From: Umezawaea tangerina
Lineage (GTDB): Bacteria > Actinomycetota > Actinomycetes > Mycobacteriales > Pseudonocardiaceae
DNA: 64,000 nt
Reading direction: 5' to 3'
NCBI RefSeq assembly: GCF_003002815.1
Contig: NZ_PVTF01000015.1
Span: forward strand, 1 to 64,000
Positions within the stretch are counted from its first letter, which is position 1. Every line of letters starts with the position of its first letter. Of the stretch, positions 35,844 to 40,292 are shown piece by piece. The notes beneath the pieces are model-generated. The model had not been told where the DNA came from, did no database searches, and was given only the letters and a program-made list of their open reading frames with translations. The translations under genes were made by a program, and so were the position numbers.

Positions 35844-37122
35844 GGACGTCGTCGACCTGTGCGCGTCGCTGATCAGGCTCGACACCACCAACCGCGGTGG
35901 CGGCGACGCCGAGGGCGAGCGCGAGGCCGCCGAGTTCGTGGCCGGGCACCTGTCCTCGCTCGGCGTCGAGCCGACCCTGGTCGAGCCCGCGCCGCGCCGG
36001 ACCAACGTGGTGGCGCGCGTGCCCGGCTCCGACCCGGCGCTGCCCGCGCTGCTGGTGCAGGCGCACCTGGACGTGGTGCCCGCCGACCCGGCCGAGTGGG
36101 CCGTCCACCCGTTCTCCGGCGAGCTGCGCGACGGCTACCTGTGGGGACGCGGCGCGGTCGACATGAAGGACATGGTCGCGATGGTGCTCTCGGTGCTGTC
36201 GACCTGGTCGCGGGAGGGCAGGGGGCCTCGCCGCGACGTCGTGCTGGCGTTCGTCGCCGACGAGGAGGACCAGGGCGAGTTCGGCGCGCAGTGGCTCGTC
36301 GACCACCACCAGACCCTGTTCGCCGACTGCGGGGCCGCCATCAGCGAGTCCGGCGGCTACTCCTACCGGGTCGGCGACAAGCGGGTCTACCCCGTCGGCA
36401 CCGCGGAACGCGGCACGTCCCACCTCAGGCTCACCGCCCGCGGCCGGGCGGGCCACGGGTCGCGGCGCAACGACGACAACGCCGTGGTCACCCTCGCCAA
36501 CGCCCTGTCCCGGCTGGCGGCCCACCGGCACCCGGTCCGGCTGACCCCGACCGTGCGGGCGTTCATCGAGCGGACCGGCGAGGCGCTGGGCGTCGAGGTC
36601 GACCTCGACGACGTCGACGGCACCCTGGCCAGGTTCGGGCCCGCGGGCGCGCTGGCCGAGTCGACGGTCCGCAACAGCACCACGCCGACCATGCTGTCGG
36701 CCGGGTACAAGGTCAACGTCATCCCCGGCACCGCGACCGCCCAGGTCGACGTGCGCACGCTGCCGGGCACCGTGGACGAGCTGATGAGCACGATCGACGA
36801 CCTCATCGGCCCGAACGTCACCCGCGAGTTCCTGGAGCACCTGCCGCCCGTGCAGGCCCCGATCGACTCGCCGTGGTTCACCGCGATGGCCGACGCGCTG
36901 CGCGCGGAGGACCCGGAGGCGATCGTCGTGCCGTACTGCATGGGCGGCGGCACCGACGCGAAGGCGTTCAGCACCCTGGGCATCGACTGCTACGGCTTCG
37001 CCCCGCTGCTGCTGCCCGAGGGCTACGACTACCGCGCCATGGCCCACGGGGTCGACGAGCGCGTCCCGGTGGAAGGGCTGCGGTTCGGCGCGCGCGTCCT
37101 GGACCACCTCCTGTCCCGTTAG
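35836..37122 (+). CDS. M20 family metallopeptidase
   Basis: The 428-residue M20 peptidase has the two-zinc site: LVQAHLDVVP, WGRGAVDMKDM, FVADEEDQGEFGA (catalytic EE) and a final FAPLLLPEGYDYRAMAHGVDE. The lid domain contains RGRAGHGSRRN. It may cleave dipeptides or N-acyl amino acids. ATG 35836 is preceded by GGAGGA at 35824-35829. The stop codon TAG (37120-37122) is completed by the first two bases of an 18-bp terminal inverted repeat, so the present C-terminus may have been set by an insertion. Confidence 0.93.
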   Translation: MAEDVVDLCASLIRLDTTNRGGGDAEGEREAAEFVAGHLSSLGVEPTLVEPAPRRTNVVARVPGSDPALPALLVQAHLDVVPADPAEWAVHPFSGELRDGYLWGRGAVDMKDMVAMVLSVLSTWSREGRGPRRDVVLAFVADEEDQGEFGAQWLVDHHQTLFADCGAAISESGGYSYRVGDKRVYPVGTAERGTSHLRLTARGRAGHGSRRNDDNAVVTLANALSRLAAHRHPVRLTPTVRAFIERTGEALGVEVDLDDVDGTLARFGPAGALAESTVRNSTTPTMLSAGYKVNVIPGTATAQVDVRTLPGTVDELMSTIDDLIGPNVTREFLEHLPPVQAPIDSPWFTAMADALRAEDPEAIVVPYCMGGGTDAKAFSTLGIDCYGFAPLLLPEGYDYRAMAHGVDERVPVEGLRFGARVLDHLLSR

Positions 37123-37138
37123 ACCTGGTCTCAAAACT
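37121..37138 (+). repeat. Left terminal inverted repeat (18 bp)
   Basis: AGACCTGGTCTCAAAACT is identical to the reverse complement of 38419-38436. The first 11 bases (AGACCTGGTCT) are themselves palindromic. It overlaps the M20 stop codon. Confidence 0.8.
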
Positions 37139-37335
37139 TAAGGGTGCGTCACTGCGTAACCTGCCGGTCCTGGTCGTCGATCGTGGGCGGTCATGGCGAA
37201 GACGACGCAGCAGCGGCGGGTCGAACGCACCACGCCGGCCGCAGGAGGCCGCAGCCGCGTTGCCGACGGCACCGTCGACGGGGATGGACGAGCACTCTCG
37301 TCGGGAAGTGATCAGCCATCGGTGGGGCCGCCTCG

Positions 37336-38286
37336 TCAGAGGCGTTCGACGCGGTCGGCCTGCGGGCCCCGGTCGCTCTGGCGCACCGCGTACCGGACCC
37401 GGTCACCCTTCTGCAGCGGCTCCGACCCCATGATCACGGACACGTGGGCGAAGAGATCGTCGCCGCCCGCGTCCGGGGTGATGAAGCCGAAGCCGCGGTC
37501 GCCGTCGTAGCGCGCGACGACGCCCTCGCCGCCTCGTACGGGCACGTCCCGCGCGGCCGGCCCCGCGGCCGCGGCAGGTGCCGACCGCCGCGGCGCCGTC
37601 GTCCGGGGCTCGGCACCCCGGACCAGCTGCACGTCACGGGCCTGCGGGCCCTTGTCTCCACTAGCAACCTCGTAGGCGACGCGGTCACCCTCCGCGAGCC
37701 ACGTCAACCCCTCGGCCAGGGCCCGGACGTGGACGAAGACGTCCCCGGCGCCGGAGTCGGGGTTGATGAAGCCGAAGCCCTTGTCCTCGTCGTACCAGGC
37801 CACCGTGCCGTCGGCACCGTCCGAGATACCAGCCGCAGCGGGCGAGCCCGCCCCTGCTCCCAGCGGGATCACGTGCCCGGCCTGCGGGCCGCGCTCGCCT
37901 TCGACGAGCAGGAAGGCAACCCGCTGCCCCTCGGTGACCACGCCGCCGGTCACGATGGCGGAGCTGTGCACGAAGACGTCGGCGCCGCCGCCGTCCGGCG
38001 ACGCGAAGCCGTAACCCTTGCCCGGCTCGTACCAGTTGACGGTGCCGAGCAGGCCCACGGCGCTGCCGGTGGCCGCATCGGCGGTGACGCGAACGCGCAG
38101 CGCCTGGGGCCCGCGGTCGTTCTCGCCGACCTCGAACACGACGGCCTGACCCTCGCGGAGCACTTTCGCGCCGCCGTCCCCGACGATCTCGGAGGCGTGC
38201 ACGAACACGTCCGGCGAGCCGTCCTCGGGCGCGAGGAAGCCGAAACCCCGTTCGGCGTCGAACCAGCGGACGGTCCCTTGCGGCAT
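37336..38286 (-). CDS. Protein with four tandem cold-shock domains
   Basis: The 316-residue protein contains four complete cold-shock (OB-fold) domains in a row, at about 3-68, 80-141, 159-222 and 254-316. Each has an RNP1 motif (RGFGFL, KGYGFA, KGFGFI, RGFGFI) and an RNP2 motif (VFVH three times, LFAH in the last), and each ends with a GPQA segment. Usual bacterial Csp proteins have one domain of about 67 residues. Linkers are short except between 3 and 4, where there is an Ala/Pro/Arg-rich linker (about 225-250). It should bind single-stranded RNA or DNA, with multivalent contacts. ATG 38286 has AGGAG about 8 nt upstream. It is the only gene inside an inverted-repeat cassette. Confidence 0.93.
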
Positions 38287-38418
38287 CAATGGCTCCTGGT
38301 CGAGAGGGCGGGCACTGGCCCCCAGTCTCTCTGATCGACTTCCGGTCCGTCGGGCCGGGCCCACAGGCGGGCGGTGCGGAGCCAGGGGCGGGCCGTTGGT
38401 CCACCTGGCGACACGCCG

Positions 38419-38436
38419 AGTTTTGAGACCAGGTCT
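38419..38436 (-). repeat. Right terminal inverted repeat (18 bp)
   Basis: On the minus strand this reads AGACCTGGTCTCAAAACT, a perfect match to 37121-37138. Confidence 0.8.
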
Positions 38437-38729
38437 TGGGACGGGCTCCCCGACTCGGCCTTCCAGTATGCGGAAACACCACCTGCGACGCGGTGTACCC
38501 GTATGCCGTAATGACGCCTCGCCGCACCGACCGGTCCGCGGCGCGCCGTGACCTGGACGTCACCGGATCCGGGCCGCGTCCGGACGGCCACCCGGTGTCA
38601 TCCGACCGAGGGAGGTAGGCCCGAAAGGGTGACCAGAGCGGTCCGAATCGTGCCCGGTTGATCTCACTATCCGCACACGCTGTCCGACCAGCGGAGGACG
38701 TAACCCCTGCAATACCGCCAATCACCCAC
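38437..38729. other. Gene-free stretch after the cassette
   Basis: No gene, RNA or clear repeat is visible in these 293 bp. Only the last bases belong to the promoter of the SMI1-type gene. Confidence 0.5.
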
Positions 38730-38735
38730 TATAGT
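38730..38735 (+). promoter_or_regulatory. -10 box TATAGT of a leaderless promoter
   Basis: TATAGT is part of the palindrome ACTATAGT and lies 7 nt before ATG 38743. No Shine-Dalgarno sequence is present. Confidence 0.5.
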
Positions 38736-38742
38736 GATCACG

Positions 38743-39273
38743 ATGAGTCACGTTTCGGAAGGCCTCGAGCTGCTCGGCAGAGCCGCGACCGAGGGTCTGA
38801 TCGACCTCGTCGTGACCGAACGGGCACAGCAGGCGCCGGCGTGGACCGGCCCTGCCGACTACGCCGAACTGCTCGCGGTCCACGGCTCGCTGAGCTGCCA
38901 CCGCGACTACGCGGGACGCACCCCGCGGTTCGCCGTGCTCGACGAGAAGGGCTTCGTCGCCCTCAACCGCGACCTGGTCCACCAGCAGCGCTTCGGCCTG
39001 TCGACCGACCACTTCGTCGGCTTCGCCGAGGCGGGCGACGACGCCGCCTGGTGCTTCGACGTGACCACCCCGGACTACCCGGTGTACTACGTGCACCGCG
39101 AGGAGCCGCGCTCGCGCCACCGGAACACCGGCGAGTGGGAGAACCCCGCCGACAGCACTCCGGACTTCCCCTCGTTCACCGCCTGGTTCACCGCCATGTG
39201 CGAGGCCTTCTCGTCCCCGCACCCTCCCCGGTGGTTCCCCTACCTCGGCGAACCGGGGCTCTCCTTCCCCTGA
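38743..39273 (+). CDS. SMI1/KNR4-like small protein
   Basis: The 176-residue protein resembles the SMI1/KNR4 superfamily: PADYAELLAVHGSLSC, a barrel with FAVLDEKGFVALN and DHFVGFAEAGDDAAWCFDV, and PDYPVYYVHREEP, ending TPDFPSFTAWFTAMCEAF. In bacteria this fold is common among immunity proteins of contact-dependent toxin systems, but also occurs alone. No toxin gene is next to it here, so an immunity role is not supported by context. The start ATG 38743 is fixed by the leaderless promoter, not by a ribosome site. Confidence 0.68.
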   Translation: MSHVSEGLELLGRAATEGLIDLVVTERAQQAPAWTGPADYAELLAVHGSLSCHRDYAGRTPRFAVLDEKGFVALNRDLVHQQRFGLSTDHFVGFAEAGDDAAWCFDVTTPDYPVYYVHREEPRSRHRNTGEWENPADSTPDFPSFTAWFTAMCEAFSSPHPPRWFPYLGEPGLSFP

Positions 39274-39294
39274 CCCCTGCCCCGCGTTGCGAAA

Positions 39295-39333
39295 CGGAAC
39301 GTGTTCCGCTTAACTGAAACGGAACACGTTCCG
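39295..39333. promoter_or_regulatory. Two tandem 14-bp palindromic operators upstream of the SDR gene
   Basis: CGGAACGTGTTCCG (39295-39308) and CGGAACACGTTCCG (39320-39333) are perfect palindromes, apart from the central dinucleotide of the second half-site pair differing in order. Both are set in the same GAAA...CTT flanks, 25 bp centre to centre. This is the form of a TetR-type double operator. No regulator gene is adjacent. Confidence 0.65.
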
Positions 39334-39356
39334 CTTTCCCGTGAGACAGGACCGCC

Positions 39357-40292
39357 ATGCCCTCCCGCGTCACCACCCCGTTCACCCGCCACTCCACCGC
39401 GTCCGACGTGGTCGAGGGCGTCGACCTGACCGGCCGCCGGATCGTCGTCACCGGCGCCGCCGCGGGCATCGGCGTCGAGACCGCCCGCGCGCTGGCCGCC
39501 GCCGGAGCCGAGGTCACCCTCGCCGTCCGCGACACCCTGGCGGGCGCCCGCGTGGCCGCGGACATCACCGCCACCACCGATGCCACCGAGGTGCACGTCG
39601 CCCCGCTCGACCTCGTCGACCTGGACTCGGTCGCCGCCTTCGCCTCCGCGTGGACCGGACCGCTGCACGTCCTCATCGCCAACGCGGGCATCATGGCGCC
39701 GCCGGAGACCCGCACGCCGCGGGGCTGGGAGCTGCAGTTCGCCACCAACCACCTCGGCCACTTCGCCCTGGCCCTCGGCCTGCACGACGCGCTCTCGGCG
39801 GCGGACGACGCGCGGGTCGTCTCCGTGAGCTCCGCGGGCCACCAGCGGTCACCGGTCGTCTTCGACGACATCCACTTCCAGCACCGCCCCTACGACGCCC
39901 TGGGCGCCTACGGCCAGTCCAAGACCGCCAACGCGCTCTTCGCCGTCGAGGCCACCCGCCGCTGGGCGGCCGACGGCATCACCGCGAACGCCCTCATGCC
40001 CGGCGCCATCGACACCGACGTCCTGCGCAACATGAGCCCGGAGATGGCCGAGGCGATGCGCGCGCACGTCGGCACCGGCGGGTTCTGGAAGACCCCGGCC
40101 CAGGGCGCGGCCACCTCGGTGCTGCTGGCCACGAGCCCGTTGCTCAAGGGCGTCGGCGGCCGCTACTTCGAGGACTGCCAGGAAGCCCTGCCCGCGACCG
40201 AGCGGCTCCGCGAGGGCGTCGCGCCGCACGCGCTGGACCCGGAAGCGGCGGCCCGGCTCTGGGAGGTCTCGCTGGACCACGTCCTGTCCTAG
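39357..40292 (+). CDS. Short-chain dehydrogenase/reductase
   Basis: The 311-residue SDR has the nucleotide loop VVTGAAAGIG, ANAGIMAPPE, SVSSAGHQRS (catalytic serine), and GAYGQSKTANALF (YxxxK variant spaced Y-G-Q-S-K). The size and the N-terminal 25-residue extension resemble retinol-dehydrogenase/light-dependent-protochlorophyllide-reductase-like SDRs of actinobacteria. NAD(P)H specificity is not certain. It is probably repressed from two CGGAAC palindromes just upstream. It converges with the aminotransferase gene, with only 7 bp between stops. Confidence 0.9.
   Translation: MPSRVTTPFTRHSTASDVVEGVDLTGRRIVVTGAAAGIGVETARALAAAGAEVTLAVRDTLAGARVAADITATTDATEVHVAPLDLVDLDSVAAFASAWTGPLHVLIANAGIMAPPETRTPRGWELQFATNHLGHFALALGLHDALSAADDARVVSVSSAGHQRSPVVFDDIHFQHRPYDALGAYGQSKTANALFAVEATRRWAADGITANALMPGAIDTDVLRNMSPEMAEAMRAHVGTGGFWKTPAQGAATSVLLATSPLLKGVGGRYFEDCQEALPATERLREGVAPHALDPEAAARLWEVSLDHVLS

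Follow-up and report, generated by a model that had tools for sequence, protein, structure and literature searches.

Insertion sequences (IS) with passenger genes are a known kind of mobile element. Transporter IS (tIS) are described as elements in which passenger genes with no part in transposition also lie between the terminal repeats of the IS itself (PMC3129680, PMC9330008), and mobile insertion cassettes (MICs) as IS ends with a gene and no transposase (PMC3281130, PMC3129680). The IS1031 group is characterized by a single ORF and a 3-nt insertion site (PMC2516522), and bacterial cold-shock proteins (Csps) are said to comprise, as a rule, one cold-shock domain (CSD) (PMC7825780). The element described here, a copy of which was found in the window (the whole 64,000-nucleotide stretch of Umezawaea tangerina DNA that was analyzed), is a tIS with a four-CSD passenger. 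As in other tIS, IS terminal repeats enclose a passenger, but in this case the passenger is a four-CSD protein, is present in nearly one copy per genome and outlives the IS. In titles and abstracts of the open-licence PMC literature, no paper was found with a cold-shock gene as an IS passenger. The window copy is best read, with a probability of roughly 0.87, as a decayed IS5-family transporter IS of Pseudonocardiaceae whose passenger was kept and which has spread between genera.

Regarding the window copy, the sequence AGACCTGGTCTCAAAACT is present at 37121-37138 on the forward strand and at 38419-38436 on the reverse strand as an inverted pair with no mismatches around a single gene, as an earlier note on this DNA had reported. 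Allowing up to three mismatches, AGACCTGGTCTCAAAACT has two matches in the window, where 100 shuffled versions gave 0.00 on average, and these two are the only ones in the whole U. tangerina genome (10,683,033 bases), which agrees with the view of the earlier note that a chance 18-bp pair is very unlikely. The repeat on the transposase side (37121-37138, forward strand) overlaps the left target duplication TTA (37119-37121), and the element proper starts at 37122 (GACCTGGTCTCAAAACT); the right target duplication, TTG (38436-38438), has one mismatch to TTA. The TAG stop codon of the adjacent peptidase gene consists of the TA of the left target and the next G, and the peptidase gene of genome G383 matches the window through 37122 inclusive, with the TAG included; the stop thus predates the insertion, which spared the peptidase gene. 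The start of an IS5-family transposase frame, MAKTTQQRRVE, survives at 37193-37225 on the forward strand and is the same as in full-length relatives; it is followed by a deletion scar and spacer reaching from the transposase remnant to the stop codon of the passenger (37226-37335, limits approximate). The passenger gene (37336-38286, reverse strand) encodes a protein of 316 aa, and its leader within the element (38287-38418, reverse strand) places the ATG 149 nt from the repeat. On the passenger side, the inner bases adjoining the terminal repeat (38419-38436, reverse strand) resemble the left end of a related IS. In an alignment with 27 further elements, the window copy has 96.0% identity to the consensus; missing from it are consensus columns 1214-2141 (MAFFT) or 1192-2136 (BLAST), which hold most of the transposase. 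The absence of a transposase between the repeats that had been noted earlier thus holds, though its first codons survive a loss of about 930 bp that took nearly all the rest. When 36900-38900 was scanned with Rfam for an RNA regulator, the sole match was to M23; it was below threshold and lay outside the element.

The repeat was searched for with up to two mismatches in 390 Pseudonocardiaceae genomes, U. tangerina included, and was matched in 89, of which 37 have an inverted pair within 3 kb and never more than one pair. The four-CSD gene was present in 37 of the 41 loci then read (window included) and absent from L037, L059, L062, and L063. The longest form, of 2,242 bp, has the same ends, an IS5-family transposase and the four-CSD gene convergent to it, so that the full-length IS proposed as a check in the earlier note does exist in other genomes. 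Such relatives, with their own transposase and the passenger within one repeat pair as in tIS, include L058, L064, L039, L107, L112 and others. The transposase, of the IS5-type DDE class, is encoded in two overlapping frames of about 120 and 203 aa; the overlap is at TCGAAAAGGGGGG, which we take to be a typical frameshift site. In L073 and L105, a change in the frameshift run has fused the frames into a single long one. Both frames of L058 score above the cut-off of the NCBIfam model NF033580 'IS5 family', and PF13340 and PF01609 are present. The DNA of 28 elements from eight genus codes is 94-99.5% identical to the consensus. In common with IS1031-like members of the IS5 family, the element has a DUF4096 and DDE transposase with a match to NF033580, a core of about 0.9 kb and a 3-bp duplication; it differs in having a passenger between a right-end relic and an extra terminal repeat, and in a transposase that is mostly divided between two frames, with a frameshift site, where that group has a single ORF.

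Regarding the layout of the intact element, a near-copy of the terminal repeat (up to three mismatches) is found at the transposase stop codon in 22 of the 41 copies with both ends called, and in L062, which has no passenger and 795 bp between its repeats, as well as in L329, it is the right repeat itself that lies at the transposase end. The element can therefore be seen as an IS of about 0.9 kb followed by a passenger and an additional terminal repeat. The intact plan would thus comprise the IS (terminal repeat, two-frame transposase and right-end relic), the convergent four-CSD gene and the second repeat, with the transposase presumably acting on the shared terminal repeats. The bases adjoining the outer repeat resemble the left end of a related IS, which suggests that two IS copies once flanked the gene and that one has since been reduced to its tip; alternatively, the passenger may have been captured through a distant surrogate end.

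The target of the IS1031 group is TNA. Among 38 copies of the present element with both ends, 24 have identical 3-bp flanks, all of the form TNA (14 TAA, 7 TTA, 2 TGA, and 1 TCA), and a further 12 are one base off, like the window copy; with flank partners shuffled, the mean was 10.3 identical pairs and the maximum 18. An empty site was sought by joining the flanks of L109 (apparently A. decaplanina) with one target copy and searching 80 genomes of its genus. The site is uninterrupted in 13 of the 79 other genomes (at least 655 of 660 bases aligned), all of which carry their own four-CSD gene elsewhere; among 12 of these empty loci that were read, five have exactly GGTTAAGGCG, two have base changes and five are short of a few bases. 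These target duplications and the one empty site show that the element inserts at TNA and duplicates 3 bp. The two congeners searched share the peptidase and the next gene with the window site but are without the element there, and their own four-CSD genes sit elsewhere in the genome. Neither offers an empty site for the window copy that is clean on both sides, since 2.2-2.8 kb of other genes lie between the peptidase and the next conserved gene in both congeners. The right flank of the window copy has 83% and 75% identity in the two congeners, and its matches in 57 further genomes do not exceed about 80 bases. This is well below the 94-99.5% of the element DNA across eight genus codes, an identity which shows that the element has spread between genera. 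The comparison of empty and filled sites that had been suggested thus gave an answer for L109, and for the window site to the extent that both congeners lack the element. Together with the transposase-bearing relatives, the target duplications and the empty site support the claim of the earlier note that the four-CSD gene is the passenger of a transposable element, which, read from sequence, would be mobile.

The passenger protein matches PF00313 in four stretches (E 2.3e-82), in line with the four domains in one chain claimed earlier, with limits by eye at roughly aa 3-67, 78-141, 157-221, and 253-316. RNP1 ([KR]G[FY]GF) is kept in all four domains and RNP2 reads VFVH in three and LFAH in the fourth, which places the protein by sequence in the CSD family with RNP1 and RNP2. 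Like CspA, CspB, and CspE, it matches CSD and Csp models, here four times, and has RNP1- and RNP2-like motifs in each domain; it differs from them in having four domains in one chain. Its 47 matches among solved structures are mostly single-domain Csps, the rest including YB-1 and Lin28. The eukaryotic UNR/CSDE1 has five domains and is, as a chain of several CSDs, a loose architectural parallel. Among NCBIfam models, that of the retron Se72 family effector is also matched by the protein encoded at 37336-38286. An uninterrupted passenger frame is present in 144 of 147 copies; of the other three, one is truncated by the end of its contig and two belong to a type with 63% identity. Over 800 sampled pairs each, dN/dS is 0.33 for young and 0.30 for old copies, and it is 0.28 in six Actinomycetospora copies; mean dS between young copies is 0.045. 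The passenger is under purifying selection, and values near 0.3 indicate that this is moderate. In 29 old copies without the 5' end of the element, similarity peaks in the last 40 nt or so before the ATG. Four linked CSDs with RNP motifs would be expected to bind single strands tightly, and since the passenger is kept after the IS dies, a host-beneficial RNA chaperone is the simplest reading; most likely the protein is a multivalent chaperone of single-stranded RNA/DNA and of benefit to its host.

At 79% identity or more, with up to five candidates scored per genome, the four-CSD gene is present in 115 of the 390 Pseudonocardiaceae genomes, of which 112 have one copy and three have two; two of the 115 (G384 and G224) additionally hold a 63% homolog. 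The hosts are soil actinobacteria and include members of Umezawaea, Amycolatopsis, Saccharothrix, Actinokineospora, Pseudonocardia, Crossiella, Kutzneria, Allokutzneria, Labedaea, Solihabitans, and Actinomycetospora. Outside the family, the best 80 of 201 loci include copies with 77-82% identity in Micromonosporaceae and Kineococcus and copies with about 70% in Actinotalea, Cellulomonas and one Frankiales genome; other lineages thus also have homologs, at 63-82%, without this IS. Of 394 genomes sampled evenly across the class, seven had a match at E 1e-60, two of these genomes being from Pseudonocardiaceae. Among 147 passenger-bearing copies, a set which includes the 63% and outside-family copies, both flanks are common to only three groups (of two, six, and three copies), further groups sharing one flank only; the threshold was 300 aligned bases and both flanks were long enough in 139 of the 147, so that diverged or cut shared sites could be missed. 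The group of six consists of the Actinomycetospora copies, which adjoin a tRNA-Leu. The gene tree is star-like and most of its branches are unsupported (16 of 140 inner branches starred, 80 open), with the Pseudonocardia copies near the base of the copies of the family. Genus labels are clustered on it (23 changes, against a least possible 18 and a shuffled mean of 87), and Amycolatopsis, Allokutzneria, Actinokineospora, Umezawaea and others do not form single clades. Given the strong clustering and the unsupported branches, transfers across genera may be few, and with the low divergence of the young copies the tree reads as an element that circulates mostly within genera and has spread between them by some transfers. 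Neither a plasmid nor a phage was retained as vehicle: plasmids gave a single archaeal match at 29%, and none of 26 phage records covers 80% of the protein, the 20 matches listed covering 21-28% of it, about one domain.

Regarding the fate of the element after insertion, 10 of 123 copies have both frames of the transposase open. When 117 copies of the family were classified, these 10 (eight with both ends) had a median identity to the window protein of 96.5%, compared with 95.7% for 30 copies with both ends and a broken transposase, 95.6% for 35 with one end and 91.0% for 42 with neither end recognizable. The end-less copies are the more diverged ones (P 5.5e-11 for the difference from the open-frame and both-ends classes). 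Only five of them keep any similarity in the transposase half, and the link of the other 37 to the IS is therefore through the identity of the passenger alone. The pattern is one in which, after landing, transposase and ends decay while the passenger stays, and the passenger may become an ordinary host gene. The window copy is thus most likely a remnant that lost its transposase in place.

An alternative for the window copy, put forward in the earlier note, is that the transposase-free form is itself mobile as a MIC, with a helper transposase acting in trans. It has the structure of one, with perfect IS ends, a passenger gene and no transposase inside; the 30 copies with both ends and a broken transposase fit such a form, and related elements with similar ends exist (L062, L037, and L059). 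There is, however, no clear sign of the window form moving, as nearly all deletions differ between copies: 79 internal gaps of at least 25 bp fall at 77 distinct positions, as called by BLAST, by which some may be diverged rather than deleted. At two positions, the deletions of two copies from different genomes coincide exactly, and in four more pairs they are no more than 6 bp apart, as would suit a spreading deleted form, but one of the shared deletions has a short repeat near its ends, seen by eye, and may have arisen twice. The scatter of the deletions is what decay after landing would give and favors decay in place over a spread of transposase-free forms. In addition, the U. tangerina genome has no transposase at E 1e-45 or better among the best 8 of 55 candidates, and no second copy of the element. 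The helper-dependent cassette was accordingly not supported and is regarded as improbable. It is far less credible still that the gene is an ordinary chromosomal one with repeats that arose by chance or serve as terminators. Many old copies are indeed without repeats, some sit at a fixed place, such as those beside the tRNA-Leu, and the repeat is partly self-complementary, but this explanation meets the matching target duplications, the empty site, the transposase between the same repeats in relatives and flanks that are mostly unrelated. For young copies, a fixed gene with chance repeats is ruled out by the duplications, the empty site and the unrelated flanks. The earlier note had named a fixed position, or neighbors shared without the repeats, as what would speak against mobility; neither is the case for young copies, and 42 of the 117 copies of the family, on the whole the older ones, lack a recognizable repeat.

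A further explanation concerns the role of the passenger, which could serve the element rather than the host as a regulator that holds it at one copy per genome, perhaps through control of transposase translation or by binding single-stranded transposition intermediates. Single copies in 112 of 115 positive genomes are consistent with this, as is Amycolatopsis, where the gene is present in 50 of 80 genomes and none has two copies against 20.6 expected from a Poisson model (P 3e-12); two copies were found in 1 of 29 Pseudonocardia genomes against 8.2 expected (P 8e-4), and some IS relatives without the four-CSD gene are multicopy (at least eight each in G309 and G297). The Poisson model ignores kinship, however, and is a rough yardstick; the other four of the six genera tested have no significant shortage, two of the 10 Actinokineospora genomes having two copies, other IS relatives are single-copy as well, and selection against a second copy would give the same picture. 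Transposase-less copies moreover keep the passenger under similar constraint, which points to host use. A regulatory role for the element is therefore held to be unlikely. Its fuller form, a self-limiting IS in which the four-CSD protein binds the single strands of the element itself, imposes one copy per genome and, after the IS has spread across genera, is left behind as a host gene, is doubtful, and equally doubtful are the targets that it would have, the transposase mRNA with its frameshift site or the transposition intermediates. Under the preferred reading of a tIS that decays around a host-beneficial passenger, a minimal transposon would have spread an RNA-chaperone-type gene, which the host then kept once the vehicle was dead, with the stages visible in living species; the copies could then serve as a natural series for measuring the domestication of transposon cargo. 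Copy number remains a puzzle, the gene being nearly always present once per genome and seldom in the same place.

Other members of this IS group have different contents. The element at 1895-4761 of L037 has the same terminal repeats (one to two mismatches), a TTA duplication, a related transposase and the same plan, with a TetR regulator and a mycothiol maleylpyruvate isomerase domain protein as cargo, while a 614-bp form at 2932-3545 of L059, with similar ends, a TTA duplication and no transposase match, contains a mycothiol S-transferase (PF04978). This suggests that the group takes up different small gene sets, here four-CSD, TetR plus mycothiol-isomerase-like, and mycothiol S-transferase genes. 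Relatives with about 70% transposase identity (L314-L331; G309, G297, G295 and others) have no four-CSD gene; they are multicopy in some Pseudonocardia genomes, and no ends of the four-CSD element were found within three mismatches at the multicopy loci. In G309, G275, and G276, the repeat that has TNA flanks is another one, GACGTCGTTTCAGAAGT or a close variant, and they are thus relatives and not the direct parent. In L326 and L330, a different repeat pair is 1.6 kb apart, about twice the transposase length, so these too may carry something.

A four-CSD gene with 63% identity was detected in 20 of the 24 genomes of genus g26. The 16 loci of this lineage that were read (13 from g26, namely L184-L193 and L195-L197, together with L194 from G384, L198, and L199) contain copies that are 91-98% identical from about position -50 to just past the stop codon and have mostly unrelated flanks, so to judge by sequence they are perhaps a second mobile lineage, which, if true, would be a parallel case to a self-limiting IS.

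Regarding the surroundings of the window copy, the interval from the M20 peptidase to the next conserved gene (37123-38733) differs among the three genomes of the genus (L378 and L379 being the others) and is a variable spot; its contents, named by eye, are the element, TetR-, epimerase-, and esterase-like genes, and LysR- and binding-protein-like genes. Further along the window, at 39291-39336 and just 5' of a short-chain dehydrogenase gene at 39357, there are two near-identical 20-nt palindromic repeats, AAACGGAACGTGTTCCGCTT and AAACGGAACACGTTCCGCTT, which look like candidate operator sites.
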